Program-made: the position numbers and the translations under genes
DNA from: Telopea speciosissima
Taxonomy: Eukaryota > Streptophyta > Magnoliopsida > Proteales > Proteaceae
Length of the DNA stretch: 64,000 nucleotides
Assembly (NCBI RefSeq): GCF_018873765.1
Contig: NC_057916.1
Location: 31,657,501-31,721,500 of the forward strand
Direction of reading: 5' to 3'
Shown here: one piece after another, positions 9,960 through 60,534 of the stretch
How positions within the stretch are numbered: position 1 is the stretch's first letter
Layout of the letters: every line of letters begins with the position of its first letter
Notes under the pieces: generated by a model
Databases searched by the model: none
What the model saw: only the letters and a program-made list of their open reading frames with translations
Told to the model about the DNA's origin: nothing

Positions 9960-10920
9960 TTTGACCTAAATACCCTCTTTTTTTGAGGGGTGCCCTAACT
10001 TTTTCTTCCCCAAATTGCCTTCGATACCAATCTTCTGCCCATTGCCCCTGCAATTCTCAATCTCCCAATCCATGCCCTTTCGTCTTTGAGGTTTTCCTTC
10101 CAACAGTACCCGCCAAAAATCTCTCTCCTCTTTTTTCAAATACCCTTTTGTCGGTTGTAGTAAGCATTTCTGTCACTGCAGTTTGCCTTATTGTCTGCTT
10201 CGATTCGGAGCCCTAATTGAGGTTCCGTTGCTTCTTCTTTTCTTCTACAGAGTACAGATCGGTGTCAGATTGCCTCTGGATTTTCACCTCAAGCTTTGTC
10301 ACAGGTTCTTGTGCCGGTGGAGGTTTTGTCAACGTCAGAAGCTGCTTGGTGATTGGGGTTTTTGGGCTCTTCTCTTTGATTCGCAGAGGTATCGTTTTGT
10401 TTTTTCTTTCCCAACTATAAATTTATCGTTTTTGGTTGTTTTTCTTGCCATATTGGTGGTTTTAAAGGTGCACGATATGAAGTGAAGGTCTTCCTCTTCT
10501 CCTTCAGATTCAGTCTTTGTTTCGTGGTTTTGACTTATGGGCTGTGTTTTTTCTTGTTCTCTTGGTTGATAAAATGGCAGTTGGGAAATCCATGTGTCAG
10601 TGGCACAATTGGAGGGTTTTTGGGTTCATTAGTCTTGCGGATTCACGTATTCGAGAAGCGAAAGAAGAAAGGAAACCCGAGATCGGTTTACCCAGGTAGT
10701 AGTAGTAGTGTTCGTACATCGTCTGTACTTACTTGGTGGTATTTCTAAAGAAGAAGGAAAAAGAAAACGATAATTTCTTTACATAAACTGTTTTTTGCAA
10801 GGCAGGTTTGCTTGGGTGTGATAGATAGAAGGCAGTGATTTTTCAACGAAAATTGAGCATCTGTTTTGAGAGATTGACGAGGTTGTGTGGTAAATATCAG
10901 TACAGTGGATTATTCCTCAA
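9960..10920 (+). other. 5' leader of the MUSTANG-like gene, probably with an intron
   Basis: T-rich and GTTTTG-rich as plant 5' UTR introns usually are. Candidate donor CAGAG/GTATCG at 10389 (another at about 10695, CCCAG/GTAGTA) and candidate acceptor GCAAGGCAG ending at 10805. Several small open frames here (60-100 codons) have no recognisable content and are treated as leader. Confidence 0.4.
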
Positions 10921-17270: not shown

Positions 17271-17404
17271 TATATCTTTTAGTTTGTTGTCAAAAAAAAA
17301 AAAACAAAAGAAAGAAATCCGAAGTCGGCCCGACGAGGTAGAAATAGCAAATAGGCCTAACAACTTTCTCGGCTTCGTAGCTCGTCTCAGCCTGTGAAGA
17401 CAAA

Positions 17405-19251
17405 ATGGCGTTTAGAAGGGCCGCCATTGCTGTTTCTGCTACATCAACGCTGGTAAGTGACGCTTTAGCACACAGGGGTACTTCCCTTCTCGTCTCTGTT
17501 GCTCGCCTTTGCGTAGATTTACTTGGAATTGCCGAAATCCATTCGAAAGCTACAAAAGATTATGCACTGGATGACCCTGGTATGAATAGAATTCAGTTCT
17601 TAGCTTCTGTTAGAGAGCGCTGCATGTCTGATGCTCTCAGGCTCGAAGAGTGCCTTGGTTTCTTTCATCACTTCGTACAGATGCAACCTTCGTCACCCAT
17701 TTTCTTCTTCAACCATATATTTGGGGCAATGGCCAGAAGGAGACATTATTCCTCTGTGTTCAATTTGTACAAGGAGATGAGTTCCTTGAGAATCCCTGGT
17801 GACATTTGCACGCTTAACACCTTGATTAATTGCTTCTGCCGCTTGAAACATGTGGATTTCTGATTTTCTATCTTTGGTAACATTCTGAAGCTTGGTTATA
17901 AACCAAATGCTGTGACATTCAATTCTCTGATTAAGGGACTCTGCATGGATGAGGAAGTAGCAGAGGCCATGGACTTGTTCAATAAGATGGTAAAGAAGGG
18001 TTACCCATGTTCTGAACTCACATATGGAACAATAATTGATGGGCTCTGCAAAGCTGGGAACACTGGAAGGGCCCTTAGCTTGCTCAGGGAAATGGAAGAG
18101 AAGGGAAGATGTAAGCCAAACTTAATCATATATAGCACAATCGTTGATAGCTTATGTAAAGACGGGTTAATTGATGAGGCCCTTAGACTATTCTCAGAAA
18201 TGACTGCTAAAAGCATGTCACCTAACGTGATCACTTATAGTTCTTTGATTCAAGGCCTAGGCGACGTTGGCCGATTGAGAGAAGCTGCGAGTTTATTCGA
18301 CCGGATGGTAGATGTTAGAATCTCACCAGATGTTGTAACCTTTAGCATTATTTTGGATGCTCTTTGCAAAGAAGGCAAGATTGCGGAGGGACATACCCTG
18401 CTAGACATGATGATTCGAAGAGGTATAGAGCCTAATACAATCACCTACAGCGCATTAATGGATGGATACTGCCTGCAGGGTAAAATGGATGGTGCCACAA
18501 GCCTGATGTGGTTACCTACCATGTGTTGATTAATGGATTTTGTAAGTGTAAGAGGATAGATGAGGCCATGGAGCTCTTTTGGGTCATGTATGGCAAGGGA
18601 TTGAAGCCTGATGTTGCAACGTTTAATCCTCTAATAAGTGGATACTGCCTGGTTGGCAGAGTTGGGGCTGCACAAGAATTTTTTGACAATATGCAAGCCC
18701 ATGGCATGGATCCAAATATCATCACATACAATGTTTTGTTGGAAGGGCTATGTAAAAACAACTGTCTTGATGAGGCAATAAAACTGATTTATTTGATGGA
18801 AAGTGGAACAGTTAGACCTGATATAAGGGCTTATGGTATTCTCATTGATGGCATGTTTAGAGCTGGAAGACCTGCAGATGGCATAAAACTTTTTGAGAGA
18901 ACTTCTACTCAGGGGTTGGAACCCAATGCAGTCACATATACCATAATGATAAAAAGACTATGTGCAGAAGGTCTGTTGGAAGAAGCTAATGAATTGTTCT
19001 CGCAGATGAAAGAGAAGGGTCTTCAGCCAGACGAATTCACATTCAATGGAATTGTCTGGGGCTTTCTTAAAAAAAACGAGATCCATAGAGCAATGCAGCT
19101 ACTGAATGAAATGATTGACAAGGGTTTCTCACCGAGTGCAAAAGTGACATCTGTGATAGTGAATTTGCTTGCAGCGGATGGGTCAGATCACGAATGCCTG
19201 GAAATGCTCCAGAAGTTCTTGCCAACAAAAGGAAAACAGGTTAAATCCTGA
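17405..19251 (+). pseudogene. Restorer-like P-class PPR protein, disabled
   Basis: Arrays of 35-residue P-type PPR motifs run through the frame (for example NAVTFNSLIKGLC, PNLIIYSTIVDSLC, PDVVTFSIILDALC, PNTITYSALMDGYC). About 600 residues is usual for restorer-of-fertility-like PPRs, which enter mitochondria and bind RNA. The N-terminus (MAFRRAAIAVSATSTL) looks like a targeting peptide. Two lesions are seen against the paralogue at 47282: a TGA at 17861-17863 where the other copy has a Gly codon, and a deletion of about 35 bases near 18492 that removes one motif boundary and shifts the frame. The 3' part (18508-19251) is open and ends normally. Confidence 0.85.
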
Positions 19252-20903
19252 CTCATTGTGTGACCCTTTTTAGGTATTGCAGTTTATGCTGTTCCCTACA
19301 CCATTTGAGGATCATATTATCTTGTTTGGCCAGAAAAAGTTGTAGCACTCTGCAAGAAAACCTACTCAATGTCAGATTATCAGGCAACTACGTATGTGAG
19401 CTCCTCCATAATTTCTTTCCCATTTTGGTTATATATTTGGAAAATTCAAAGTAAACTGTTTGAAGTTGATTAGTTTATGGAAGTGTATGATATTCTTGAC
19501 TTCCTAATGTATCATAACATTCATACACGATTTTACTTTCAGTCTCCATAGTACTAAGAGTCTGGAGGTTATAAGTACTACACTTGTCAATATCAAATTT
19601 ACATGGAAAAGCTACATGAATGATAGGACCTTTCTTTACCCATTAGATTTGCATGAAATTTCTAGATGACTGGATGCTTCCACTTCAGAAATTTGTGATT
19701 CCTAAACTCTTTGGGAACAACGTACAATTCTAAGCTGTACCATGGAATGCTTTGTGGCATAATCTAGGACTATTAAATATTAACCAAAAATTTATTTTTG
19801 GCATGTAGCCATCTAGAGTCCATACCCAAGTCCTTATCATGAATGTAAATGAACAGGTGGAAATAAAATGAACTAGAAGAATATGCATATGCACTTCAAG
19901 AAACATTGACCCCCATTATTCATACATGGAATGGATTCCCAGATTATTAAATTGTAGATCCTTCAAAGAGTAGACCATTGTTGTGATAAAGCTGTATTAG
20001 TTCAATTAAATGGAGCTATGTTTAATTGGCATATTTTCCATATATTTCAAGTTTGATGATGTTCAGGTTGGCAATGCTCATCATAATGCCCCCTCCCCTT
20101 TTGTTTAGCAATTCGTGAAACTAGTTGACCAGAAGTTAGCGAGAACTTTTTGAGCTGTTTTCTGTTAAAAAGGTCTACTTTTGGTTCCAAATTGGGGGAT
20201 TTTATGCTTTGCTTCATTAATTTCACCGGAACTGATCTGGGCTATCATGTGATGTTTCATTGTAAATTGAAGGACTGCTTGCTACAGTTCAATTTTGGAA
20301 TACAGAAATATGTATTTGAAGCAGTAATAGAAATCAATGAGTCACTGTTCTGGATCACTTGCATATTAAATTTGCTATATTTATGCTCTTAGATGTTGTA
20401 TGAGATTGGTATTTCTGTGTTGTCCACCTCCATGGGATCAATTTCTGCTTATTTGGCCACTTCAGTTCTGGCAGCTTGATGAGTTAAATGTGACAAAAGT
20501 GAGGGTTTGGATCTTGAATCTTGAATCCTGAATCTCTTTTCTGTAATTTCAGTGCTTTCCTTTAAGTTATCCGTTACTATGTAGTTCTTGATTTTTCCTT
20601 TTTCCTTTAAATATGGTTCTTGGTTTTTCATCTACCTTTTTCAGGAAACTTTCACGGACGAAGAAATTGGGAGTATGGAGTTTCTCATTGTTGTTGCAAG
20701 CTAATTTTGTCTGCCGTCGATTTCGTACAAATGCATTGTTGTTGTTTCTGGTCTGTTATCTCAGGCCTTAATTTTTAAGATCGCTATAAGAGACTTAATG
20801 GCTATATAATTTGTGTTGCGGGGAGTCGGGGACTTGCAGTATGTTTTTAGTTGTCTCCCTTTAGAATTTTGCTTTTGAATAGTAGGAGTGGAATGTTTCT
20901 TTG

Positions 20904-20906
<3 letters not shown>

Positions 20907-20947
<41 letters not shown>
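20907..20947. repeat. (TA)n microsatellite, left of MITE
   Basis: About 20 AT units. The array resumes at 21101-21124 on the other side of the MITE, as if split by it. Confidence 0.95.
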
Positions 20948-20950
<3 letters not shown>

Positions 20951-21099
20951 GAGAAGTTTCATACACAACCGTGCATGGTGTATGATCATACTTTCAACCA
21001 TTGGATGGGCATGATCGTTTATAGTATACAGCCTCTCATCCCCATCCAATGATTGTACATACGGTTGTGCATCATGCATGAAACCTTTTGCCATAAATA

Positions 21100-34207: not shown

Positions 34208-34350
34208 TACAACAATAACAACAACTCAGCCTTATCCCAAATAAATGGGATCGGCTACATGGATCCTTGCCCTCCAATCAGCTCTATTCGACGTCATACT
34301 TGATACAAGGCCTAAGCTATGCATGTCTTTCCTCACTTCTCCTAAGGACA
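34208..34350 (-). mobile_element. RTE LINE 3' end fragment, target-duplicated
   Basis: On the minus strand it encodes SSMTSNRADWRARIHVADP, the C-terminus of plant RTE-type LINE proteins (also present at about 59191-59250), then a GTTGTTATTGTTG tail. Flanked by a direct repeat TTGGGCACCA (34198-34207, 34351-34360). Copy B of the duplication has the site without the insert. A strongly 5'-truncated retrotransposition event. Confidence 0.85.
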
Positions 34351-34605
34351 TTGGGCACCAAATTATTAAGAAATAAAAGGGGAAGGGTCCCTCTTCAATT
34401 AGCCAATTAGGGAGGGTCTCAACTATAAGTAGATAGCGTATACAAGGCAACCAGTAGATAATGGGAGCATTCACTTACTTTGTTTTGTGCTATATAGAGG
34501 AGAGAGAAGATGTTTCCACTATAAGCTTTGTGAGACCTTCATGGTGGTAAGGTCATGGTTGTTAGACATACAACTAATGTCTAGATGATGTTTACATGCA
34601 TATGT

Positions 34606-34680
34606 GTTGTGTGTGTGTGTGTGTGTGTGTGTGTGTCATGGTTGTTAGCCAATGTCTATATGTTGTGTGTGTGTGTGTGT
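34606..34680. repeat. (GT)n microsatellite pair
   Basis: Two GT runs separated by a repeat of CATGGTTGTTAG. The equivalent position of copy B has (CT)n(TA)n(GT)n at 59846-59959. Confidence 0.9.
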
Positions 34681-34969
34681 TTAATCTGGAAAAGTAATGG
34701 AATCCCTTGATGGCTTCGTATAAGATTGCCTGAGGCCCTGAATACACATTTCTTTTCCCATTGAATTTGCATCTCAAGGGACTCTCTAGGGGTATGTTTG
34801 TATGCCAAAGTATCATGAACTGTGAGTAGTTCTCTCTTAGTGGTTTAGTTTTTCCTCTGGTGCAATATACATCACTGAACTGTGGTATTTTTTGAATCTC
34901 CTTATATTATAGCAAAATATGTATCTTTTCTAATTGCTCACCTCAATTTTTTCTTCCTTGTCTCTTTAG

Positions 34970-35197
34970 GGATGACATGTTACCTAATATTTCATGCTTT
35001 CAGTTGCAGAGAAGATTGGTTAGAGAACTAGATGCTAATATTGACGCTGCCAAAGAAATATCAGATTTATTCTGCGGCAGTTATGAAGCCATTGTGAAAC
35101 TAATGTACTGTTGGAGATTGTCCTGCTTCTATGCTGCAGAAGCATCTCAATACAAGAAGGGTGTAGAGTTGACTAATGCCTTCCTAACTTCAGACAG
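34970..35197 (+). CDS. Internal exon of an unidentified gene (copy A)
   Basis: Good acceptor (polypyrimidine, then TCTCTTTAG) before 34970 and donor CAG/GTACAC after 35197. The 228-bp exon is open in phase 1, encoding a mostly helical stretch with RRLVRELDANIDAAKEISDL and CGSYEAIVKLMYCW. The same stretch is conserved at 60240 (copy B). I do not recognise the protein family. The other exons must lie elsewhere or be lost; no start or stop is assigned. Confidence 0.45.
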
Positions 35198-35210: not shown

Positions 35211-36678
35211 ATGGGCCTCCAAGTTCCAATAATATTTCAGAACTCCTTTTAGCTTGAGTGAGAACAGGGGATAAGGAAGAAAATAGGGGGAAAAGAAGGG
35301 CAAAGGGGGGAGGTAGAGAATGTGGATGTTTCTGTTTCTACTGTCGAGGACTGCCCGAGCTGTTAATGGGGATAGACTGTAAATTCATTGGTAATGTGTG
35401 ACAAGTGTCTCATGTTTGAAGGATCGAGACTCCATGTGTGAAAGGGCCATACTTGCTATAAAACTCAACTATGGTGTTACCAGTGTTTGGATATGCTGTA
35501 TAAGAAATCTTTGAGATGGGTATCTTGGAGAGTAATTACTCTTTAGATATGATGTATTGTTGCCATGTGTCTTATTATTGATAATGGACTTTTCTCCATT
35601 ATCCTTATTTCTTTCTTTTTTAAAGATTATCTGATGGAATTTTTTCGATTATGTTGGTTAAAACAGAATCACAGAGCAATATATTTTTTAGATAGATAGG
35701 CCCTAAGGAGTTGGTCTTTGCCAATTGAGCTACCCTCTTGAGGTTAGATGGCATTTGGAGTGTATGTGGAGAGTAGTTATTCTCCACATATGTTGAGAAG
35801 ATCCGGACTCATACATCTACCCCTGCAAATGGTGGGTCTTGATCGAGTATATCTGAGACATGTAAGTGGTGATTTGGAGTTAGGAATGAGTGTTCAATTT
35901 TCTTTTCCTCATAGACAACAATAACTCAAGTCAGGCTCCTGTACTATAACAATGCAGGAAACGAATGAAAATCGCAAAGAAATAATGACACAACCCAAAG
36001 ATTTAAATGGTTCGGCAAGATTGTTTATATTCACTGTGAGATGAGATTTGTTTCACTATCACTGGAGAATAGAATTACAACCACTTTTACTCATGCCTCT
36101 CCGATTACAAAGAATGAACTCGCTATAAAATTGTCACAACATTATATAAGTACAATTTAAAAAATTGGAATCAGACCACAAACCCTAGCGACAAAATACA
36201 AGACATTGTACCCTCAACAGCTCCGGCATCTTATCTAACCCAACTCGTTGATGAGTCTGGATCCCCTTGTTGTACGTGGAGAGAAGTTACTTACTCTGCA
36301 TATATGTTGTCTTATGTTCTACCATTGACAAAGGAGGACAATTCTGTTATCCCCTTTTTCTCTCCTCTCTTACAACTCACCCTCTCTATCACTTTCCTAT
36401 CATTGGTCCCCAACAAGTCACCCTCCTTTGCTTGCTAGCATTTCACTATCACATTCATATGATAGAGAATAAGAGAGTAGATACTCAGCATTCAACACAT
36501 GTCCTTTGTAATTCCAAAAATACCCCTTAATGTATTCTAAATGGCAATGTGAAGGACATGTGTTGAGCGCTGAGAATACGTGTAGCAGAATTAGACTTCG
36601 AGAATAACATAATGAGAGTATCTGAAGTCCGGCTCCATCTATTGTGGGGAAATAAAGAAAAGAGAAGTGAAATAAAAT
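35211..36678. other. Non-coding, no gene seen
   Basis: 35412-35470 shares GAAGG-TCGAGACTCCATGTGTGAA with 15446-15475, where it overlaps a B-box-like GGTTCGAGAC; both may be remnants of one SINE family. The rest shows nothing recognisable. Confidence 0.35.
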
Positions 36679-37420
36679 TGATAAACCCAGATTTATGAAG
36701 ACCAATTGGAGGCTGCCATGTGTCGGGTCCAAGGAGGTGGATCCTAACGGGACCGAAGGAGGAACTAGCACGAACGTGGACCACCCACACCCTTGGGCTC
36801 CAACCCCTTGGGGTACGGCTTCCCTTGGGCGCCAACCCCTTGGGGTACGGCCTCCCTTGGGCGCCAACCCCTTGGGGTGCGAACTTCCATGCACACACAG
36901 ACGGGGACCTCAGACACACATGGATCTAAGCGTGGATGTGGATCTTGATAGGAGACTAACACCATCGTCACTGTCGTCGTCAACTGGACGTACACCGCCT
37001 CAAGGACTCTAGAACACCGCCTATCAACTGTACAGTCTCAGATGGACATAAACACTAAGCACCATATCTGACAACATATCAACATCTATCCACTAAGAAC
37101 GACAACCCAACTGGGACACTACATCCCATGGGAAGACAACCAATCGAGGAGGAACCCTACTACCCAGGGACTCTATCAACTACGAAGGCCACTCTACATC
37201 AACTGGGACTCTTCACACCGCCATACTCTACTATAAAAGGGAAGGTACTCTACCCCATCAACCCATCTTAAATTCTATTATTCATCTGTTAACTTAGAGA
37301 GATCTAACTTAGGCGTCGGAGAGTCCTAGGCCGGAACCACACCGGTTCTCCTTTGTCACCTAAGTTCTTGTGCAGGTTACAGCACTCAAAAGGATCCTTG
37401 AATGATTTCCTGATGCAACA
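36679..37420 (+). repeat. 5' LTR of the Tat gypsy element
   Basis: Begins TGATAAACCCAG, ends TGATGCAACA. Contains three 32-bp tandem units (starting 36790, 36822, 36854) of the type CCCTTGGGCGCCAACC, a TATA-like CTATAAAAGGG near 37230, and a 22-bp local duplication near 36990-37020 that the 3' LTR lacks. Confidence 0.92.
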
Positions 37421-37440
37421 GATTGGCGCCGTCTGTGGGA
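37421..37440 (+). other. Primer binding site of the gypsy element
   Basis: TTGGCGCCGTCTGTGGGAAC directly after the LTR is the usual primer site text of plant gypsy elements of this type. The matching tRNA was not determined. Confidence 0.7.
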
Positions 37441-37486
37441 ACGATGCTAGCCATCGTACCTACTAGCTCAGTTTCACACTCATCCA

Positions 37487-39430
37487 ATGGCACCACGGGG
37501 TAAGAAGACTGCTCCCTCCACCAACAATGTCCCAAGGAATGGATCACCTCCTCCAGAGAGCTCTCGTCGTAGAGCCAATGACCATGACCATGTCTCTCTA
37601 GAGAGGGAGATCTCAGACGATGATCAAGTTGCGGTAGTCGAACCCAACAACGTAGTGGTGGAGGTAGTACTTGACCCCAATGCACCAGCAACTATGAGTC
37701 AAATCAATGACCTACAACGACAGATCCTCGATGATCAATGACTCTTTCGAGACTACCTGAGGCAGCGTGCAATGTCCCATCACCGCAGGACATTGTCAGC
37801 ATGAAGGATAGAGCCTATACTTCGATAGGAACCAAACCCTAGGAGATCATCCCCCAGGGGTGAAAGGTCAGAGAGACTTGTGAGGCGAGCAACCCCCACT
37901 CCCCAACAGGAGGAGCCTTCTCAGCATCCCCGAAGGACAAGGGACCTCTCAGTACGGTCAGATCGTGGAAGGACACCAACACCCAGAATGAGGGTACCTA
38001 GCCCAGAAAGATCCATCAGGAGGTCCATGTTCCAAGGTCGACTAGGAGGAAATCACACACTAAGGCGGAGCTAGACCGACCGAGAAGAAAGCCCCTCACG
38101 ATCATGCCAGGGTTCATCGCGATGTGACCATTCACCATCCTGCCAATACTCAAGGCGGGAGGGGACTTCAAGGAGAGGACATGAACGAGGTCGCAGTGAA
38201 CGTCCTGCTAAGTGTGAGAGACAGACATGGGTTGAAGAGATCGACAAAAGACTCCGAGATCTGGAGGAGAAGCTGGAAGGGTTGAAGAAATACACCAAGG
38301 GCGAGATGTACTCAATACCCGGGCAACACCCATTCTCGACAGAGATCATGTCAGCCACACTCCCCTCCAGGTTCAGGTTACCCACCTTCGAACTCTACAG
38401 TGGTACCACGGATCCTAATGACCACATCAACTATTTCAATGCTATGATGACACTGTATGGTGGATCGGACGTGGTCTCCTTTCGAGCATTCCCTGCATCC
38501 CTTAAGGGTGCAGCTACTTCCTGGTTCTCCAGACTACGATCGAGATCAATAGGTTCGTTGGCAGAACTATGCGAGCAATTGGTTACCCGCTTCTAGAGCA
38601 GCATCAAGCAGAAGAAGACCACGGTTAATGTACTGAACGTGGTATAAAACCTTGGGAAGTCCCTCAGGGAGTATGTCAGTAGGTTCACCAAGGAATCCTT
38701 AGAGGTTCGAGACTTGGACGACTAGACCCAACATGCAGCCTTGGCAGGGAGCATTAGAGACCTGGACCTGATTAAGGACCTGGCACCTCATGAGACCAGG
38801 ACTATGAAGGAGCTCCTGGAGCGATGCAATGAGTTTGCCAATATGGTCGAAGTACTGCAGGCTAGGAAGAAGGTGATCGAGGCCAAGCCACAAGACAATA
38901 AGAGGTCAGCACTAGATGACCATAAAGAAAGTAAGAGGTCGAGGACCGAGCGTCGACAAGAGAAGGGTGACCGCCCATCTGGAAGGACTGACCATCATCC
39001 AGAGAGGAGTGAGAGAGCAAGCAGTTCTAAGTTTACACCACTAAACACTACCAGGTCTTAGATCCTCATGCAAATTCAAGACCGTGACCTACTCCGTTGG
39101 CCACGACCCATGCTAGCAGGACCCGAGAAGCATAACCCCAACAAGTACTATCTCTTCCACACGAAGAATGGACATGATACAGAAGATTGCTACCAACTGA
39201 AGAGGGAGATAGAGAAACTTAAATGAGCAGGGAGCTTGAACAAGTACGTGAAGGGGAGATGTGATGGCCTTTCGAGTCAAGGAGATAGAGGTCGCGATCG
39301 AGAAAGAGAAGAACCCAGAAGGAAAGAAAGGACAGATCGAGAGAGAGACCGCCCAGAGGAGCGAAGAGATGCAGCCGAGCCTAGTGGCACCAAGGGAGCT
39401 CCCATCCTCACCATATTAGGAGGACCGGGG
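37487..39430 (+). pseudogene. gypsy (Tat) gag, multiple stops
   Basis: Starts at ATG 37487 (MAPRGKKTAP), broken by a TGA at 37739-37741 and later stops. The Retrotrans_gag core is seen at 38340-38700 (FRLPTFELYSGTTDPNDHI, FPASLKGAATSWFSRLR, REYVSRFTKESLEV), with a knuckle-like HTKNGHDTEDCYQLK near 39160-39205. Arg/Glu-rich linkers (RDREREEPRRKER) follow. Confidence 0.85.
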
Positions 39431-39583
39431 TAGGAGTCTACTAGGAAGGCCAAAGCCCATGCCAGGTTCGTGGGGGTAGCAGAGAAGCCAAGCAAAGTAG
39501 CCAAGACCAAGACGATAATCTCCTTCTCGGTTGAAGACTTGGAAGGGCTGAGCTTCCCACACGAGGATGCCCTGGTAGTATAG

Positions 39584-41500
39584 GTGGAGGTAGCCAATCG
39601 ACCTGTACACAAGGTGTTGATAGATACAGGAGCATCAGTAGATGTACTCTCCCTAGAAGCCTACCGACAGTTCGGGTTCGGGGACGATCAACTCAAGCCA
39701 GAGCTCACCTACCTCCATGGATTCTCGAGCGCTACTGCCTCCATCAGAGGCACCATAGAGCTACCCATCACCTTTGGAGTACCCTCACCAAGTGACGATC
39801 ATGGTAAACTTCATGGTCGTCAAGTCCGTGGTGTCATTCAACGGCCTCCTAGGGCGACCATCTCTGATAGCCCTTAGAGGAGTCGTATCACCACTCCACC
39901 TAAAGATTAAGTTTCCCACTGAGAATGGGGTAGGCGAGGTTCGGGGAGATCAGAAGAAAGTAAGGGAGTGCTATGCGACCTTCATCAAGAAAAATAATGG
40001 TAACACCCGCGGGATGGCACTCTACATAGAGAACTTGGTCAGCGACCAGAGAGATGAACTGACAGAAAGAAGAGGAAGGCCAGTGGAGGACTTCGTCCTA
40101 TGGCCACTCAGTAAGGACGACCCCTCCAAAGCTGTACAGGTTGGCTCACTGTTGAGCAACAAGCAGAAGGATGGGCTTGGACGTCTACTCCAAGCAAACA
40201 TAGATGTCTTCGCATAGTCGACCTCTGATATGCCAGGTATACCATGGTCCATAGCAGAACATCGACTACATGTCGATCCAACCAGGAAGCCCATCCAACA
40301 AAAGTGGTGTAATTTTTCCCTTGACTAACAAGCAGCTATCAAGGAAGAGGTCGAGAAGTTGGGCCAATTAGGGTTCATCAGAGAAAAGAAGTTCCCCACA
40401 TGGCTCGCGAACGTGGTTATGGTACTCAAGCCCAACGGGAAGTGGAGAATGTACGTCGACTACACAGACCTGAATAAGGCATGCCCAGGATAAACCTATT
40501 GATCGATGCTACTGTCGGCCATGAGATGCTGAGCTTCATGGATGCCTACTCAGGGTACAACCAGATCCTCATGCATGAGGATGATGAGTCCTACACCGCG
40601 TTCTGGACGGACAAGGAGAACTACTGCTACCACGTCATGCCGTTTGGGCTAAAAAATGCAGGAGCCACCTACCAGAGGATGGTCAACAAGATATTCGAGG
40701 AACAGATCGAACGCCACATGGAGGTATACATAGATGACATGCTCGTGAAAAGCGTCCAAGCTCACCAACACCTGACCGACCTAGAGGAAGCATTCACGGT
40801 ACTGAGAAGGAACTAGATGAGGCTAAACCCAGCAAAGTGCACCTTCGATGTAACGTCAGGGAAGTTCTTAGGGTTCATGGTCTCAGTACGTGGAATAGAA
40901 GCCAACCCATCTAAGATCAAGGCCATCCAAGAGATGACACCGCCTCAGACGGTCAGAGAAGTACAAAGGCTGAATGGAAGGGTCACAGCTCTTTCAAGGT
41001 TCGTGTCACGATCAGGAGACAAGTGCCTACCGTTCTTCAAGACATTGAAGAACCTCCGAAGTCCAAAAGACTTTGCATGGACGGAGGAGTGTCATAAAGC
41101 GTTTGAAGAATTGAAGGAGTACTTGGACAGTCCACCATTGCTTGGGTGACCAGAGCCCAATGAAGAGTTGCAACTCTACCTGGCCACTACCCCTGTCGCA
41201 GTAAGCGCAGTACTGTTAAGGGAAGAGGGAAAGATACAGAGACTCATTTATTATGTCAGTCATGTCCTGATTGATACAGAGACCAGGTATACAAGGATTG
41301 AGAAGGTAGCCTACGCGCTGGTGATCGTGGTTAGGAAGCTACGACTATACTTCCAAGCCCATACTATCATAGTCCTCACCGGCCTACTACTGAAGAAGGT
41401 ACTCCACAAGCTAGATGTCTTTAGATGATTGCTAGCCTGGGCGGTAGAGTTGAGTGAGCATGACATCAGATTCCAACCACGGACAGCCATCAAAGGCTAA
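39584..41500 (+). pseudogene. gypsy protease-RT-RNase H, frameshifted
   Basis: Protease active site VLIDTGASVDVLSL at 39617-39655. The frame moves by one near 39785 and back near 40490. RT includes NGKWRMYVDYTDLNKACP, MDAYSGYNQI, MPFGLKNAGATYQRM and the catalytic YIDDML (about 40728-40745). RNase H remnant LRLYFQAHTIIVLT near 41335. Deletion around 40485 removes part of the usual KDSYPLPRID stretch. Stops at 40816, 41149 and 41428 confirm inactivity. Confidence 0.88.
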
Positions 41501-41579
41501 GCTTTGGCGGACTTAGTCACCGAATGCACCCTATCTGAGGTCGAACTAGAAGCAGAAGAACTAGAGGAGCATGATCGAG

Positions 41580-41990
41580 GATCGTGGGAGATGTTCATGG
41601 ATGGCTCGAGCAATGCAGCAGGAAGTAGGGCTGGCATCATACTCACCAGCCGCAAGGGATTTCGAATCCAGTAGGCTCTCTGATTCACCTTCCAAGCATC
41701 CAATAATAAAGCAAAGTACGAAGCACTACTAGCTGCACTCCGGGTAGCCAAGGCCATCCAAGTAACACACCTATCCATCCGGAGTGACTCCCAGCTTGTA
41801 GTGAACCAGATGAATGGAGAGTATGAGGCGAAGGACGAGCGAATGGCGTCATACCTAGCACGCGCCCGAGCACTGATCGAGGGGTTCGTGAAGTTCGAGA
41901 TGGTTCGAGTCCCCAGGATCGAGAATGCCACCCATGCCCTATCAAGGCTAGCCAATGACAAGCTCCAAAACTTGGCCAGTGCAATCTACA
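41580..41990 (+). pseudogene. Archaeal-like RNase H (aRH) of Tat gypsy
   Basis: MFMDGSSN (first acidic site), SNNKAKYEALLAALRVA (Glu site), SIRSDSQLVVNQMNGEY (Asp site) and a final RIENATHALSRLA segment match the RVT_3-type RNase H that Tat elements carry in addition to their own RNase H. One in-frame stop at about 41672. Confidence 0.85.
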
Positions 41991-42049
41991 TTGAGATCTT
42001 ACATGAGCCAACATATCAGGAGAAACAGGTCAATGAGATTGAGGAAGAG

Positions 42050-43321
42050 CCTAGCTGGATGGACCCTATATTCAACTACCTACAGAACGACGTCTTACAA
42101 GAAGACAAGGTCGAGGCAAGGAAGATAAGGATGAGAGCTACAAAGTACACTGTCCTGGACAGAGTACTATACAAGAGGGGGGTCATAGCACTACTACTCC
42201 GATGTCTGGGACCCAAGGGAGCCGAGTATGCCCTGACAGAGGTCCATGAGGGGATTTGTGGAAGCCACATGGGGGGATGAGCCCTAGCCTACAAAGTCCT
42301 CTGCCAGGGGCTCTACTGGCCATGAATGCATAAGGAAGCAATACAGTATGCCAAGAAGTGCGAGCAATGTCAGTTGTTCGCCCTAGTACCCCATCTACCC
42401 GCCACCAAACTGATATCAATCCTCAACCCCATCCACTTTGCCATGTGGGAGATGGACATCCTAGGCGATTTCATAGCAGCATCAGGGAACAGGAAGTACC
42501 TGGTCGTCCCTATAGACTACTTCACCAAATGGGTCGAGGCTAAGCCACTGGCCAAAATAACAGAGAATGAAATGGAGAAGTTTATCCGTGACGACGTCAT
42601 CTACATGTTTGGGATACCAAAAATCATAGTCTCAGACAACGACAAGCAATTCAACAACCCCAAATTCAGAGCATTCTGTCAGAGCTACAACATTGACTAT
42701 CGGCCTGTATCGATAGCATACCCACAAGCTAATGGTCAGATGGAGGTGACAAATAGAACATTGCTAGAAGGAGTCAAGAAGAGGCTAGAAGGGGCCAAAG
42801 GAAAATGGGTCAAAGAACTACCAAGCGTTCTGTGGGCGTACAGAACCACAGTAAGGACACCCACAGGAGAAAGCCCATTTCACCTAGTATACGGCACTGA
42901 AGCACTAGCACCAGTGGAAGTGCTTGCCATGTCCCACAGAGTACTGCACTTCAATGAGCACACCTATGACGACGGACTCCGAGTAAACCTAGACTTCCTA
43001 GATGAGGTTCATGAGAAAGCACTCCTAAAGAACGTGGCCTATCAGCAACGAACCGCCAAGTACTACAATGCCAGGGTTAGAGAGAGGCTATTCCACCGGA
43101 GAGACCTAGTCTTACGAAGGGCAAGTGCATCGCAACCACGGAAGGAGGGAAAGTTGTCGGCCAACTGGGAAGGACCATATATAGTTTCCAAGCAGATACA
43201 CTCAGGGACCTACCGCTTGAAAACTCCGGGGGGCAAGAAGATAGATCGTACCAGTAAGAGTAGCAGTAGCATAGTCGACTGTCAGTCGTGGTACATGGTA
43301 AGTTACATTTTTCAAGGATGA
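42050..43321 (+). pseudogene. gypsy integrase, nearly open
   Basis: Zinc-binding region (HEGICGSHMGG ... CEQCQL) with stops near 42280 and 42322, then the catalytic core with MDILGDF, IVSDNDKQF and NGQMEVTNRTL, giving D, D, E. YRTTVRTPTGESPFHLVYG follows, and a C-terminal GPYIVSKQIHSGTYRL chromodomain-like barrel. From 42326 to 43321 the frame is open. Confidence 0.9.
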
Positions 43322-43457
43322 TTTGAAATTTTATTTGATATTTGATGTTGGGATACATTCGTCTACTCCTACCTATCGGTCGAACACCTCCAAAGCACTA
43401 TGGTCCATGGATCACCTCCAAAGTACCATGGTCTACGGATCACCTCCCAACACTATA

Positions 43458-43855
43458 GTCTCCGGACCACCAAGGCGCAATGCCACCAAGGTCCGATGAC
43501 CACCAAGGCGCAATGCCACCAAGGTCCGATGACCACTAAGGCATAATGCCACCAAGGTCCGCTGACCACCGAGGCGTAATGCCATCAAGGTCCGATGACC
43601 ACCAAGGCGTAATGCCACCAAGGTCTGTTGACCACCAAGGCGTAAGGCCACCCAGGTCTCCAGACCACCAAGGCATAAGACCACCAAGATCTCCGGACCA
43701 CCAAGGCGTAAGCCACCCAGGTCCACGAACCACCAAGTCTAAGGCCACCATGGTCCATAGACCACCAAGGCATAAGGCCACCAAGGTTCACAAACCACCA
43801 AAGTCCGAGAACTATCAAGGCGCAAGGCCAGTGAAGTTGGATGACTACTAAGGCC
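43458..43855. repeat. 33-bp minisatellite in the gypsy 3' region
   Basis: About 11-12 units of a 33-bp motif with CCACCAAGGCGTAATG and CCACCAAGGTCCGATGA halves. Because 33 is a multiple of 3, all frames show 11-residue periodicity, which explains long spurious open frames on both strands. Confidence 0.92.
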
Positions 43856-44299
43856 TATTGGCCATATACGAGTAACGAAGAGCAATACACAAAGGAGCGA
43901 GAATCAAACCACAGAAATCCAGAAAGAAGGCTGTGGGAGAAGGAAACCTCATAAAGGCAGAGATCATCTCTAGAAGGACTACCATCTAGGCCAGGACTAT
44001 CAACGGCACCCTCCCCGTCAGTAGAAGTAGGTCTGAGAGGAGGCAATGGGGGAGAGTGTCTACAAAAGAAGACGACCTTGAAGAGGATCCATCCGTGGAC
44101 TCAACCACAACAGTGGTGGAGTTAGATTCGCTAGGCATCATGGACAATGGCAAGGAAGGCTACTTACTTGAGTAGTAGTCCCCCAACGTCAAGCCACCGA
44201 CCCAAGAGAGTGGAAAGCAAGCTGCAACGACCAACAAGCAAACTCATGAAGAAAGGTACAAAAAACAAAAAAAAAAAAAAATTGCCACGGCTAAGGGTA

Positions 44300-45375
44300 G
44301 GCGACAGGTCATGGACATAGGCGAGGTTCGAGGTCGAAGTCCGAGGTCGAGGTTCAAGGTCTGAGGTCTGAGGTCAAAGTTTACGAGGGATCGAGGTCAA
44401 GGTTCGAGTAAAGATGTGTGTATGGCCAAAGACTAATTCGACTCAATACAAAGAAAAAAAAAAAAAAAGAAAAAAAAAAGAGGGCCAAGAGGCCACGACC
44501 GAAGGACCATGGGCGTCGACTCCTACGAAAAAAAAAAGAAAGAGCCAAGGGTCCACGCCTAAAAGGCATGGGCGCCGACTCTTGGAAAGAGAAGAGAGAG
44601 AAGAAAGAGAGTGGAAAAAAAAATCATGAATGGGAGCCATCAATACTCTTAAGAGAGAGAAGAAAAAGTAAAAAAAAAAAGAGAGCCAAGGGTCCATGCC
44701 CAAAGCATGGGCGTCGACTCTTGGAGAGAGAAAGGAGTAAAAAAAAGGAAGGAACCAAGGGTCCACGCCCATGGGCGTCGACTCTTGAATGAGAGCAAAG
44801 GACAAGGAAAGAGAAGGAAGAGAAGGAAGAGAAGAAAGAGAGTGCAAAAAAAAAAAAAAAAAAAAAAGAAGAAGAGATCCATCAAGGGATCACGGCCTAA
44901 GGCCATGGGCGTCAACCCCTTGGGCGAGGAACAAGGAGAGAGAAGAGAGAAAAGAAGGAGAGTGAAAAAAAAAAAAAGCACATTAATGGGCGCCATCAAT
45001 GGGCGTCATGGGTGAGAAGATAAGGAGAGAGAAGAGGGAAAAGAAAAAGTAGGAGAGAGAAGGAAGAACAGTAGGAGAGAGAAAAGAAGAAAAAGCAAGA
45101 GAGAAGAAAGAAAAGAAAAGGGTTTTTGGCCACGCCCATGGGCCGCAGTCGAGCGGCTCCAACAAGTGCGGATGGGCACGACGGCCTATAGAAGCGGATT
45201 GACGGGAGCGATAGACGCCAACCCAGCTCGACGGGCGTGGATCAAAACAGACGCTGATCAAGACGGGCATGGATCATAACAGGCGCGGATCGAACAGGCA
45301 CGGATCGAGACGGGCGTAGATCAAAACAGGCGTAGATCGAGTCGGGCGTGGATCGAACAGGAGCGGATCGGATAG
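44300..45375. repeat. Purine-rich degenerate tandem repeats in the gypsy 3' region
   Basis: 44320-44400 repeats GAGGTCGAGGTTC-like words. 44460-44960 repeats blocks of A-runs, AGAGAG and CATGGGCGTCGACTC at intervals of roughly 60-130 bp. 45235-45375 repeats GATCGAACAGGCGCG-like units of about 17-18 bp. Open frames here are Lys/Arg- or Phe/Ser-rich artefacts. Confidence 0.8.
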
Positions 45376-45647
45376 GTGCAGACAGTCGAGAGGCGCCAAC
45401 GGGCGCGGACGAGCACAAACAAGCTGAGGTACGAGCAAAGAACATGAGATCGAGGTATGGGCGACACGGGCACAAGGAGGCGACAAGCTCATGACCGAAA
45501 CCACGGACGTGATCAAGATCAAGAGTAAGCAAGCCACTAGAAAGGCCAAGGGCTAATAGCCAAGAAAGGAAGAAACCGAAAGAGAGCAAGGGAGACAAAG
45601 CTTCAAAACAAAAATGAAAAAGATACTCTCTTGAGCACTCCGTTCCA

Positions 45648-45664
45648 AGAGAGTGGGGGGCAAA
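45648..45664 (+). other. Polypurine tract of the gypsy element
   Basis: AAGAGAGTGGGGGGCAAA directly before the TG of the 3' LTR; primes plus-strand synthesis. Confidence 0.85.
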
Positions 45665-46383
45665 TGATAAACCCAGATTCATGAAGACCAATTGGAGGCT
45701 GCCATGTGTCGGGTCCAAGGAGGTGGACCGTAACAGGACCAAAAGAGGAACTAGCACGGGCGCGGACCACCCACACCCTTGGGCACCAACCCCTTGGGGT
45801 ACAGCTTCCCTTGGGCGCCAACCCCTTGGAGTATGCTTCCCTTGGGCTCCAACCCCTTGGGGCGCGAACTTCCATGCACACGCAGACGGGGACCTCACAC
45901 ACACGTGGATCCAAGCACGGATGTGGATCTTGATAGGAGACCAACACCATCGTCACTGTCGTCGTCAACTGGACGTACACCGCCTATCAACTGTATAGTC
46001 CCAGATGGACATAAACACTAAGCACCATATCTGACAACGTATCAACATCTATCTGCTAAGAACGACAACCCAACTGGGACACTACATCCCACGGGATGAC
46101 AACCAATCGAGGAGGAACCCTGCTACCCAGGGACTCTATCAACTACGAAGGCCACTCTACATCAAGTGGGACTCTCCACACCGCCATACTCTACTATAAA
46201 AGGGAAGGTACTCTACCCCATCAACCCATCTTGAATTCTATTATTCATCTGTTTGCTCAGAGAGATCTAACTTAGGCATCGGAGAGTCCTAGGCCGGAAC
46301 CACACCGGTTCTCCTTTGTCACCCAGGTTCTTTTGTAGATTACGGTACTCGAAAGGACCCTTGAACAATTTTCTGACGCAATA
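45665..46383 (+). repeat. 3' LTR of the Tat gypsy element
   Basis: Aligns with 36679-37420 over its length at about 93% by hand count. It has the same 32-bp internal units and the same CTATAAAAGGG box, and lacks the 22-bp duplication. Ends near GACGCAATA; the usual terminal CA has drifted. Confidence 0.92.
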
Positions 46384-47271: not shown

Positions 47272-47281
47272 GGAAGACAAA

Positions 47282-49142
47282 ATGATGTTTAGAAGAGCCG
47301 TCGTTGGTGCTGCTGCTACTTCAACGCTGGGAAGGGATGCTTTAACACACAACGGTACTTTCCTTCTCGTCTCTGTTACGCACATTTGCATAGATTTATA
47401 TGGAATTGCCGACATCCATTCGAAAGCTACAAAAGATTATGCATTGGATTTCCCTGGTATGAATAGAAAACAGTTCTTAGATATTGTTAGAGAGCGCTGC
47501 ATGTCTGATTCTCTCAAGCTTGAAGACTGCCTTGGTTTCTTTCATCACTTCGTTAAGATGCAACCTTTGCCACCCATTTTCTTCCTCAACCATCTGTTTG
47601 GGGCCATGGCTAAAAGGAGACATTATTCCAATGTGTTCCCTTTGTACAAGGAGATGTGTTCATTGGGAATCCTCGGTGACGTCTTCACGCTTAACACCTT
47701 GATTAATAGCTTCTGCCGCTTGAAACATGTGCATTTCGGATTTTCTAGCTTTGGTAACATTCTGAAGCTTGGTTATAAACCAAATGCTGTGACCTTCACT
47801 TCTCTGATTAAGGGACTCTGCGTAGATGAGGATGTAGCAGAGGCCATGGACTTATTAAATAAGATGGTAAAGAAGGGTTACCCATGTAATGAACCCACAT
47901 ATGGAACAATAATTGATGGGCTCTGCAAAGCTGGGAACACTGGAAGAGCCCTTAGCTTGCTCAGGGAAATGGAAGAGAAAGGCAGATGTAAGCCGAACTT
48001 AACCATCTATAGCACAATCGTTGATAGCTTATGCAAAGATGGGTTGATTGATGAGGCCCTTAAACAGTTAAACTATTCTCAGAAATGACTGCTAAAGGCA
48101 TTTCACGTAGTGTGATCACTTATAGTTCTTTGAATCAAGGCCTATGCAACGTTGGCCGATTGAGAGAAGCTGCGTGTTTATTCGACAAGATGTTGGATGT
48201 TGGAGTCTCACCAAATGTTGTAACCTTTAGCATTCTTTTGAATGCTCTTTGCAAAGAAGGGAGGATTGTGGAGGGACATTCCCTGTTAGACATGATGATT
48301 CAAAGAGGTGCAGAGCCTAATACCATCACCTACAGTGCATTAATGGATGGATACTGCCTGCAGGGTAAAATGGATGATGCCCTAGAAATCTTTCATTCCA
48401 TGGTGGGTAGGGGCCACGAGCCTGATGTGGTTACCTACAATGTGTTGATTAATGGATTTTGCAAGTGTAAGAGGATAGATGAGGCCATAAAGCTCCTATG
48501 GGACATGTATGGCAAGGGATTGAAGCCTGTTGTTGCGACATTTAATACTCTAATAGGTGGATACTGCCTGGTTGGCAGAGTTGGGGCTGCACAGGAGTTT
48601 TTTGATGACATGCAGGCCCATGGCATGGGTCCAAATATCATCACATACTGTGTTTTGTTGGAAGGGTTATGTAAAAACAACCGTCTTGATGAGGCAATAG
48701 AACTGATTTATTTGATGGAAAAAGGGACAGTTAGACCTGATATAAGGGCTTATGCTATTCTCATTGATGGCATGTTTAGAGCTGGTAGACCTGCAGATGG
48801 CATAAAACTTTTTGAGAGAACTTCTACTCAGGGGTTGGAACCCAATGCAGTTACATATACCATAATGATAAAAGGACTATGTGCAGAAGGTCTGTTGGAA
48901 GAAGCTAATGAATTGTTCTCGCAGATGAAAGAGAAGGGTCTCCAGCCAGACGAATTCACATTCAATGGAATTGTCTGGGGCTTTCTTAAAAAAAAAGGAG
49001 ATCCATAGAGCAATGCAGCTACTGAATGAAATGGTTGACAAGGGTTACTCACTGAGTGCTTGCAGCGGATGGATCAGACCATGAATGCCTGGAAATGCTC
49101 CAGAAGTTCTTGCCAACAAAAGGAAAACATGTTGAATCCTGA
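47282..49142 (+). pseudogene. Restorer-like P-class PPR protein, disabled differently
   Basis: Starts MMFRRAVVGAAATSTL and reads without a stop through the point where copy 1 has its TGA. Visible 35-residue motifs include NAVTFTSLIKGLC, PNLTIYSTIVDSLC, PNVVTFSILLNALC, PDVVTYNVLINGFC and PNAVTYTIMIKGLC. Lesions against copy 1: an 8-bp insertion near 48068 that makes a TGA at 48086-48088; one extra base in the A-run at 48988-48996 that truncates the frame at 49008; and a deletion of about 30 bases near 49060. The original stop corresponds to 49140-49142. The family binds organelle RNA, usually in mitochondria; this copy could give only a short N-terminal or an internal product. Confidence 0.87.
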
Positions 49143-50648
49143 CTCAATACGTGACCCTTTTTAGGTGATGCAATTTATGCTGTTCCCAACACCATTTGAG
49201 GATCATATTATCTTGTTTGGACAGAAACAGTTGCAGCACTCTGAAAGAAAACCTACTTCTGCAGGAAACCTACTCAATGTCAGATAATCAGGCAACTAGT
49301 TTTTTTTTGGTAAATCAGGCAACTAGTTATATGAGCTCCTTCATAATTTCTTTACCATTTTGGTTAGATATTTAGAAAATTCAAACTAACCTGTTTGAAG
49401 GTATGATTAGTTTATGGAAGTGTGTGATATTCTTGACTTCCTAATGTATTATAACATTCATACACGATTTTACTTTCAGTCTCCATTGTACTAGAGGCTA
49501 GAGGTTGTAAGTACTAACAGCTGTCAATATCAAATTTATGTGAAAAAGCCACATGAATGATAGAACCTTTCTTTACCCATTAGATTTGCATGAATTTTCT
49601 AGATAACTGGATGCTTCCGCTTCAGAAATTTGTGATTCCTAAACTCTTTGGTTACATGTACAATTCGAAGCTGTTCCATGGAATGCTTTGTGGCATCATC
49701 TAAGGACCATTAAATATTAACCATAATTTTATTTTTGTCATGTGGCCATCCAGATTCCATACCCAAGTCCTTATCATGCATGTAAATGAACAGGTGGAAA
49801 TGAAATGAACTAGAAGAATGTATCCATGCACTTCAAAGAAACATGGCCAAGAATTATGCATCCATGGAACAGAACTATATTGGTTTGATTAAACAGAACT
49901 ATATTTAATTGGCATATTTCCTATATATTTCTAGTGTGATGATGTTCAGGTCGACAATGCTCATCATGATGTTTTGTCCCCTTTTATTTAGGAATTTGTG
50001 AAAAGTAGTTTACCAGAAGTTAGCGAGCATTTTTTGAGCTGTTATCTATTAGAAAAGGTCTACTTTTGGTTCCAAAATTGCAGAATTTTCTGCTTTGCTT
50101 CATTAACTTCACCACCTGGCCAGATCGTGGGCTATCATGTGATTTATTTCATTCTATAATGAAGGACTGCTTGGTACAGTTCAATTTTGGAATACAGAAT
50201 TATGTATTTGAAGCCGTAATAGAAATCAATGCATCACTGTTCTTGGTCACTTGCATTTTAAATCTGCTATATTTATTCTCTTGTTTGTTGCATCAGATTG
50301 GTTTTCTCTGTTGCCCACCTCCATGGTATCAATTTCTGCTCATATGGTCACTTCAGTTCTGGCAGCTTGATAAGTAAATTTTGACAAAGTAAGGGTTTTG
50401 GATCTCGAATCTCTTTTCTGGAATTTCAGTGCTTTCATTTTATGTTATCCATTAATATGTAGTTCTTGATTTTTTTTTTCCATTAAATATGGTTCCTGGT
50501 TTTTCATCGACCTTTTCAGGAAACTGACACAGACTAAGAAACTGGGAGCATGGAATTTCTCATGGTTATTGCAAGCTAATTTTGTCTGCCATCAATTTCC
50601 TAAACATGCAGCGTTGTTTATCTGGTCTGTTATATCATGTTATCAGGT

Positions 50649-50902
50649 GCATCATGGGCCCTTACTGTTGAACGTCGCTATAAGAGACTTAATGGCTATA
50701 TAATTTGTGTTGCAGGTACTTGCAGGATGTTGTTTGTTGGCTCCCTTTATTATATATGGTCAGAGAAACATTCCAGTCCTACTAATCAAAAAGCAAAATT
50801 ATAAAAGGGAGCCAACAAACAACATACTGCAAGTACCTGCAACACAAATTATATAGCCATTAAGTCTCTTATAGTGATGTTCAACAGTAAGGGCCCATGA
50901 TG

Positions 50903-50903
<1 letters not shown>
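50649..50903. repeat. Long inverted duplication (hairpin), 101-bp arms
   Basis: 50649-50749 and the reverse complement of 50803-50903 match at about 98 of 101 positions, both ending GCATCATGGGCCC. The 53-bp centre is the inverted copy of sequence that follows the arm in copy 1 (ATTCCAGTCCTACTAATC against GATTAGTAGGACTGGAAT-like at 20885). Copy 1 has only one arm. A (TA)n array follows at once (50904-50936). Confidence 0.9.
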
Positions 50904-50944
<41 letters not shown>

Positions 50945-51224
50945 CATATCTATCATATTATCTTACAATTATATATTATATTAAATTACGTACAATAATT
51001 TTTTGGCATACTTCTTCATTGGACCAAAATACTGTTTGTGGTATAATTTATCCCTAGTCCCTACTCTCTTCTTCACACCTCTGTCATCATCCTTTCATCT
51101 TATTCTCCTTTTAAATTTCTCATTGTTTCTCTATATGTTTATCCCCTATCTAGATTTTCTCAAACAAATCTCTCTTTCATGTTTTTCCCCTCCCCTCTCC
51201 ATCTCTCTCTCCCTCTCTCCCCTT

Positions 51225-57457: not shown

Positions 57458-59389
57458 ACCAATTCGGTGGGGAATCGAAAGGAAAACGTCATACTCCTAG
57501 GGAGACTTGGTGGTGGGGATGATGAGGTCCAAGCCGTCATCAAGACTAAGAAAGCTAGTTTCAAGACATAGCAAAGGACTAAGGATGTAGAAGATATAAA
57601 AAGGCTAGAAATGAAGCTAAGAAGATTGGGGGGAATGCAAGGGTGAAGAAATATGAAGATCTCTATAATAAACAACTTGAACACCAAGGAAGGGGAAAAA
57701 TGCTATCTATAAGATTGCTAGAATGAGGGAAAGGATGAGTAGAGACTTTGCCTCTGTTAGATGCATTAAAAGTGATGATGGTAGAATCTTAGTAAGGGAT
57801 GAGGACATCGAGGAGAGATGGAATCGTTATTTCTATAGCATACTTAATGTAACCAATCCAAGTTATGGTGGACCGGGAAAAGGCACTACACATCAAGTCA
57901 CTTGTCGAAGGTATATACGTAAAATTAGGGTTTCTAAAGTAAAAGAAGCACTAAGAAAGATGAAAATAGCCAAGACTCCTGGCCCAAATGGGTCCCAATA
58001 GAAGTGTGGAAGAACTTATGAATTTGTGGCTTATCTTGGTTAACTAAGTTGTTTAATAAGATTATGTGCACTAAGAGAATGCTAGATGAATGGAGGAGAA
58101 GCATTGTGGTCCCGATTTACAAAAATAAAGGCGATATCCAAATTTGTAACAGCTATAGAGGCATAAAACTAATGAGTCATACTATGTAATTATGGGAGAG
58201 GGTTATTGAAACACACCTGAGAAAAGAGACCACTATTTTGGAGAACCAATTTGGTTTTATGCCAGGAAGATTCACAATAGAAGCTATCTACCTACTTAGG
58301 AGATTCATGGAAAGATTTATAGAGAGCAAAAAGGATCTCCATATGGCCTTTATTGACCTAGAGAAAGCTTATGACTGAGTTCCTAGGGATTTATTCTAAC
58401 ATGTACTAAAGATGAGAATGTTTCACGTAAATATGTGGACATAATTAAAAATATGTATGATGATGTGGTGACTAGTGTAAGAACTATAGGGGGTCAAGGT
58501 AGACATCCAAGGTGAGGTTCCTTGGTGCATGCTTTTTGCTGATGATATTGTTTTGGTGGATGAGACAAATATTGGAATTAATACCAAACTGGAGTTATGA
58601 AGATCAACCTTGGAATCAAAAGGTAGAACGAAGACGGAGTATATGGTTTGTAACTTTAGCAACTCGAGGACGGATAATGTGAGGGTTAAAAGTTGATGAG
58701 ATGGAGATTCCGCAAAGTGACCATCCAGGTATCTAGGATCAATCATCAGTAAGGAAGGTGATCTAAAAGATGATGTCTCTCAGAGGATTAGAGTAGGTTG
58801 GATGAAGTGGAGAGGTGCATCTAGAGTGTTATGTGATCGACGGATTCCTTTGAAGCTTAAAGGAAAATTTTACAAAACAGTCATAAGACCATGATGTATG
58901 GCGCAAAGTGTTGGGGCAGTCAAGAAGCATCTTATAGACAAGCTGAGTGCAACGGAGATGAGGATATTGAGTGGAAAAACCAGGAAGGATTAAAATAAGG
59001 AAAGATAATATTAGAGCTGGTTTGGGAGTAGCTCCGATTCAAGATAAGCTATGAGAAAGTCGTCTGAGGTGGCATGGCCATGTTCAACAGAGGCCTTCGG
59101 ATTGAAGGTTCTAAAAGAGCTAGGGACAGGCCTAAAATGACCCTAGGAAAAGTGGTGAGGAAAGACATGCGTTGTTTAGGTCTTGTTTCAAGTATGACTT
59201 CGAATAGAGCTGATTGGAGGGAAAGGATCCGCGTAGCCGATCCCAGTTAGTTTGTTCAAGTCTGATTTGTTGTTGTTGTGTTCCTTTTCTTTTCTTTTAT
59301 CTTTATTATCTTGTCTTCGGTAGGATCCATGTAGCCGATCCCATTTAGTTGGGATCAGGCTGAGTTGTTCTTCTTGTTGTTTTTGTTGT

Positions 59390-59395
<6 letters not shown>

Positions 59396-59435
<40 letters not shown>
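59396..59435. repeat. (TA)n microsatellite at the RTE LINE tail
   Basis: About 20 TA units directly after the TTGTTG tail and directly before the start of segmental duplication 2 copy B. Confidence 0.95.
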
Positions 59436-60390
<955 letters not shown>

Positions 60391-60534
60391 TCCTGCCCTC
60401 TGCTTTCTGTAGCTAAGGAAGAACAAAATAATCATCAAGTTGTACTCAAATCAATGTACATGAACAACAACTATCCTTGCAGCAATAGGAGGCATTTGTG
60501 TTGTGTCTCTAATTTAAAGTTGAGATGTAACTAG

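Follow-up and report, generated by a model that had tools for sequence, protein, structure and literature searches.

A near-perfect foldback beside a duplicated PPR pseudogene in Telopea speciosissima and its probable origin by template switching at a TA array

Template switching has been described as a maker of hairpins, those of microRNA loci included, in a single event (PMC8794818). In apes, AT-rich sequence is enriched around template switches, and in the gold-standard set from great apes the copied tracts have a median length of 12 nt and are at most 128 nt long (PMC7954356). In plants, inverted duplication is a source of MIRNA and siRNA loci, such as MIR161 and MIR163 (PMC1790633, PMC3237417), and aberrant replication or recombination has been named as a possible cause of such duplications (PMC1790633). 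At the level of titles and abstract openings, no report was found that derives plant miRNAs from template-switch mutations; most of the subscription literature lies outside this scope and prior publication is possible. A 2023 paper is said to treat the de novo origin of miRNAs by template switching.

The foldback described here lies in a 64,000-nt stretch of Telopea speciosissima DNA (the window, in whose positions all coordinates are given) and was probably made, at odds that we put at roughly four in five, by a single template switch during DNA synthesis that took place after duplication of a PPR pseudogene segment. Like the four-point template-switch mutations (PMC7954356, PMC8794818), it appears to consist of one backward-copied tract that yields an inverted repeat, lies in an AT-rich context and would have gained its hairpin in one event. 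It differs from the ape set in that it is found in a plant and is deduced from a paralogue instead of a species tree, and in that its tract of about 155 nt exceeds the maximum of 128 nt, so that a short-range fork switch of this size would be beyond the range given there (PMC7954356). It resembles the MIR161/MIR163-type loci in being a recent inverted duplication of gene-associated sequence with a near-perfect foldback, whereas its arms derive from a pseudogene 3′ flank and not from coding sequence, it is known from sequence alone, and its paralogue permits the event to be reconstructed with its switch points (PMC1790633, PMC3237417). Template-switch hairpins and small-RNA loci born of inverted duplication are both already in print (PMC8794818, PMC1790633); the locus is a clean new example of something already familiar. 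Its value is that a young hairpin with a single-arm sister nearby allows the switch points to be read closely, and it illustrates how one copying event can yield a near-perfect stem of 100 bp.

The foldback sits in the 3′ flank of one of two PPR copies, with the sister copy about 30 kb away. The copy beside the foldback (copy 2; 47273-49008, + strand) was delimited by Pfam PPR matches, reading frames and alignment to its sister, and its frame is broken near 48064-48085; copy 1 (17396-19251, + strand) also matches PPR profiles and carries an in-frame stop at 17861-17863 and a frame change near 18484-18526. The places at which the two frames are broken, read by eye, are different. The original prediction had spoken of a PPR pseudogene, a description that holds for both copies. 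They have the same orientation, align from 17396 and 47273, and have about 2 kb of 3′ flank in common. The arms of the foldback begin approximately 1.6 kb beyond the end of the last PPR frame (49005) and do not consist of PPR coding sequence. A protein-coding reading of the hairpin was also considered and rejected, each of the six frames across it containing at least two stops.

An inverted-repeat search placed the left arm at 50649-50748 (+ strand, in the original orientation) and the right arm at 50804-50903 (− strand), separated by a 55-nt loop (50749-50803, − strand). Of the 100 arm positions, 97 are reverse-complementary; the three differences, at 50674, 50677 and 50726, leave identical runs of 25, 2, 48 and 22 nt along the stem, and a 101st position would add a fourth mismatch. 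The predicted arms of 101 bp and loop of 53 bp were thus off by one and two. A tandem (TA)n array abuts the right arm at 50904-50958, as had been foreseen, and is the likely return point of the template switch. Five pairs came out of a window-wide scan (seed 12) for inverted repeats no shorter than 40 nt and lying within 3 kb; the foldback is the longest and most complementary of them, and the sole pair at least 90% complementary that is not mainly made of TA units. Folding of 50640-50912 as RNA gave -183.4 kcal/mol for the + strand, whereas 200 dinucleotide shuffles averaged -58.7 (sd 5.1; z -24.35). The − strand gave -179.8 kcal/mol (z about -24 against 200 shuffles). The predicted + strand structure, with an MFE of -182.2, has 98 arm pairs and accommodates two of the three arm differences as G-U pairs; this is the stem into which a transcript would fold.

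Copy 1, which is the sole proxy for the ancestral state, has a different arrangement: one arm (20758-20861, + strand; four-point and three-way alignments), followed by the loop sequence, here oriented the opposite way, and by a (TA)n array, the last two occupying 20862-20947 (+ strand; tandem-repeat search, four-point and loop alignments). The reverse complement of the copy 2 loop is identical to copy 1 at 47 of 52 aligned bases, with one gap. It scores 36.5, whereas the loop in the same orientation scores 7.0 and the best of 500 dinucleotide shuffles 12.5; under another scoring the values are 74, 14 and 27 (1000 shuffles). Both the single arm of the paralogue and the inversion of the loop had been predicted, and both are borne out by these alignments. 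The loop and the right arm together match copy 1 in inverted orientation with a score of 87.0, against a shuffle maximum of 15.5 (500 shuffles), and therefore form one inverted block. For about 12 bases at the start of the arm, copy 1 offers no clear match. In a three-way alignment of 102 columns, a few of which lie just outside the strict arm, all three sequences agree in 83 columns, copy 1 stands apart in 14, the left arm in two and the right arm in two, and all differ in one. With copy 1 as reference, the alignment reads as left-arm changes at 50674 and 50726 and a right-arm change at 50677.

When copy 2 was aligned to copy 1 under the four-point template-switch model, the score was 138.0, compared with -160.5 for a forward-only alignment. 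Linear gap costs on an insertion of 150 bases exaggerate this gap, however, and the shuffle test of the loop is the fairer measure. What marks a template switch, one contiguous reverse-complement tract taken from adjoining sequence, is found here. The switch points in copy 1 are 20861 (point 1, leave), 20917 (point 2, enter), 20758 (point 3, leave) and 20904 (point 4, return). Points 1 and 3 fall at the ends of the arm, the latter approximately because of the foremost arm bases that lack a clear counterpart; point 2 lies within the TA array (20907-20947) and point 4 at its edge, their order being ambiguous within the TA repeats. In copy 2, this alignment exits the inverted tract after 50901, on the border of the TA array. 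The probable sequence of events would begin with duplication of the PPR pseudogene segment. Synthesis of copy 2 would later have reached the end of the present left arm, jumped to the opposite strand within the nearby (TA)n array and copied about 155 bases backwards, first the loop and then the arm, before returning to the TA array, so that the forward loop was replaced by its inverted copy together with an inverted arm. The origin envisaged in the original prediction, namely a post-duplication foldback arising through template switching at the TA array, is thus well supported as the probable one by the four-point alignment, the inverted loop and the contrast in divergence set out below. Parsimony and divergence are the grounds on which we infer the order of events; the replication mechanism itself is likewise inferred, and break-induced repair could result in an identical trace.

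The foldback could also have acquired a present function, a reading that is compatible with an origin by template switching: it may be a transcribed hairpin RNA locus, at a proto-MIRNA stage, whose Dicer-cut siRNAs act on copy 1. The predicted structure would allow such a locus as a possibility, and inverted duplications do seed small-RNA loci in plants (PMC1790633). In addition, 35 of the 160 arm 21-mers occur exactly in copy 1, with a 39-nt stretch identical, so that the single arm there would be matched by any small RNA produced. Against this, that sole other match in the window adjoins another pseudogene; with up to three mismatches allowed, the arm 21-mers had no match besides copy 1 in the window (50600-50959 masked). 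Plant MIRNA criteria comprise a stem-loop of less than 300 nt and small-RNA reads that define a precise miRNA/miRNA* pair; at 255 nt, with its 98 arm pairs, the foldback is within this length. Methylation is frequent at hairpin loci that yield siRNAs. A known miRNA family was sought and rejected, as none of the 23 matches in a cmscan of 50400-51100 against Rfam (E up to 10) reached the gathering score, nor did any of the five matches in a further Rfam search. Six families matched the stem with E < 1e-6, none at the gathering score, and the best, MIR5048, obtained 76.1 bits against a gathering score of 160. That these six are unrelated is more in keeping with a long near-perfect stem than with any single family, and we read the four Rfam alignments shown as scoring mainly from pairing. 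The polyadenylation signal AATAAA is absent from the + strand of 49001-51000. We regard a functioning hairpin RNA locus as unlikely. If the stem is transcribed, siRNA-type Dicers would be better suited to it than DCL1, for which perfectly paired RNA is said to be a poor substrate (PMC1790633). It is tempting to speculate that a small-RNA gene has just been born here: a TA-array template switch in the flank of a PPR pseudogene would have produced a hairpin of 100 bp that is transcribed and yields siRNAs able to act on the sister copy, and a proxy for the earlier sequence would survive 30 kb away. This fuller scenario is quite unlikely. If expressed, the locus would provide an early starting point from which the rise of a small-RNA locus could be followed; if silent, it remains a single neat illustration of a type of mutation already known. 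Most likely, it is neutral DNA today.

Alternatively, the hairpin might predate the segmental duplication, in which case copy 1 would have lost its second arm and gene conversion would have kept the arms of copy 2 alike. Just two copies are known, and gene conversion between close inverted arms is plausible and could make an older hairpin appear young. However, the loop sequence of copy 1 has the opposite orientation to that 3′ of the left arm in copy 2, so that a deletion alone would be insufficient: an inversion would have had to come first, followed by a deletion reaching the TA edge. A separate argument comes from divergence. Between the copies it is uneven across blocks, with differences at 145 of 1693 positions within the PPR frame, at 35 of 446 in the block of flank that comes first, at 150 of 1125 over the following three blocks combined (flank 49501-50640), at 12 of 91 within the arm itself and at 25 of 110 in the downstream part. 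The probability of three or fewer differences in 100 is 0.037 at a divergence of 8%, and 0.0015-0.0002 at 12-14%. Unless arm-to-arm conversion masks its age, the foldback is thus probably younger than the duplication, because its arms differ at only 3 of 100 positions compared with 150 of 1125 between the copies nearby, and a hairpin older than the duplication is improbable.

Foldback chimeras are a known sequencing artefact, and an assembly or library error of this kind might be suspected. On the contrary, the three arm differences, of which comparison with copy 1 places two on the left arm and the third on the right, are unlike what copying within one molecule would give, and the right end joins TA sequence that runs on into flank matching copy 1; an artefact is accordingly very improbable. 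A MITE or other inverted-repeat transposon, to which the inverted-repeat shape and TA-rich edge might point, is hardly credible, since copy 1 carries homologous flank for most of the arm and for the loop, so that the foldback is not an insertion of foreign sequence with an empty site in the sister copy, and no target-site duplication was seen at its edges, which were read by eye.

The TA array of copy 1 holds an insert of about 145 bp (20948-21092), MITE-like and with imperfect inverted repeats, that is absent from copy 2; the same TA array has thus been rearranged in both copies. Elsewhere, the window contains several retroelement and transposase fragments recognized by profile matches (RVT_2 with gag_pre-integrs; rve with RVT_3; zf-RVT; MuDR/MULE). 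One LTR element, perhaps Ty3-like as a guess, extends over 36675-46381 and ends about 0.9 kb before PPR copy 2; its repeats (36675-37418 and 45662-46381) are 89.9% identical, RVT_3 and rve matches lie between them, and so does a tandem array of some 10 copies of a 33-bp unit (43465-43787). A second pair of similar segments, 34209-35126 and 59136-60396, follows the order of the PPR duplication and is partly inverted; it may reflect a larger duplication, or repeats. miR475 targets PPR genes in poplar, and a weak Rfam match to MIR475 lies in PPR coding sequence at 48438-48568 (24.3 bits, gathering score 70, E 0.53). At 10894-13203, a frame open for 769 aa from stop to stop matches MuDR/MULE transposase and SWIM domains.
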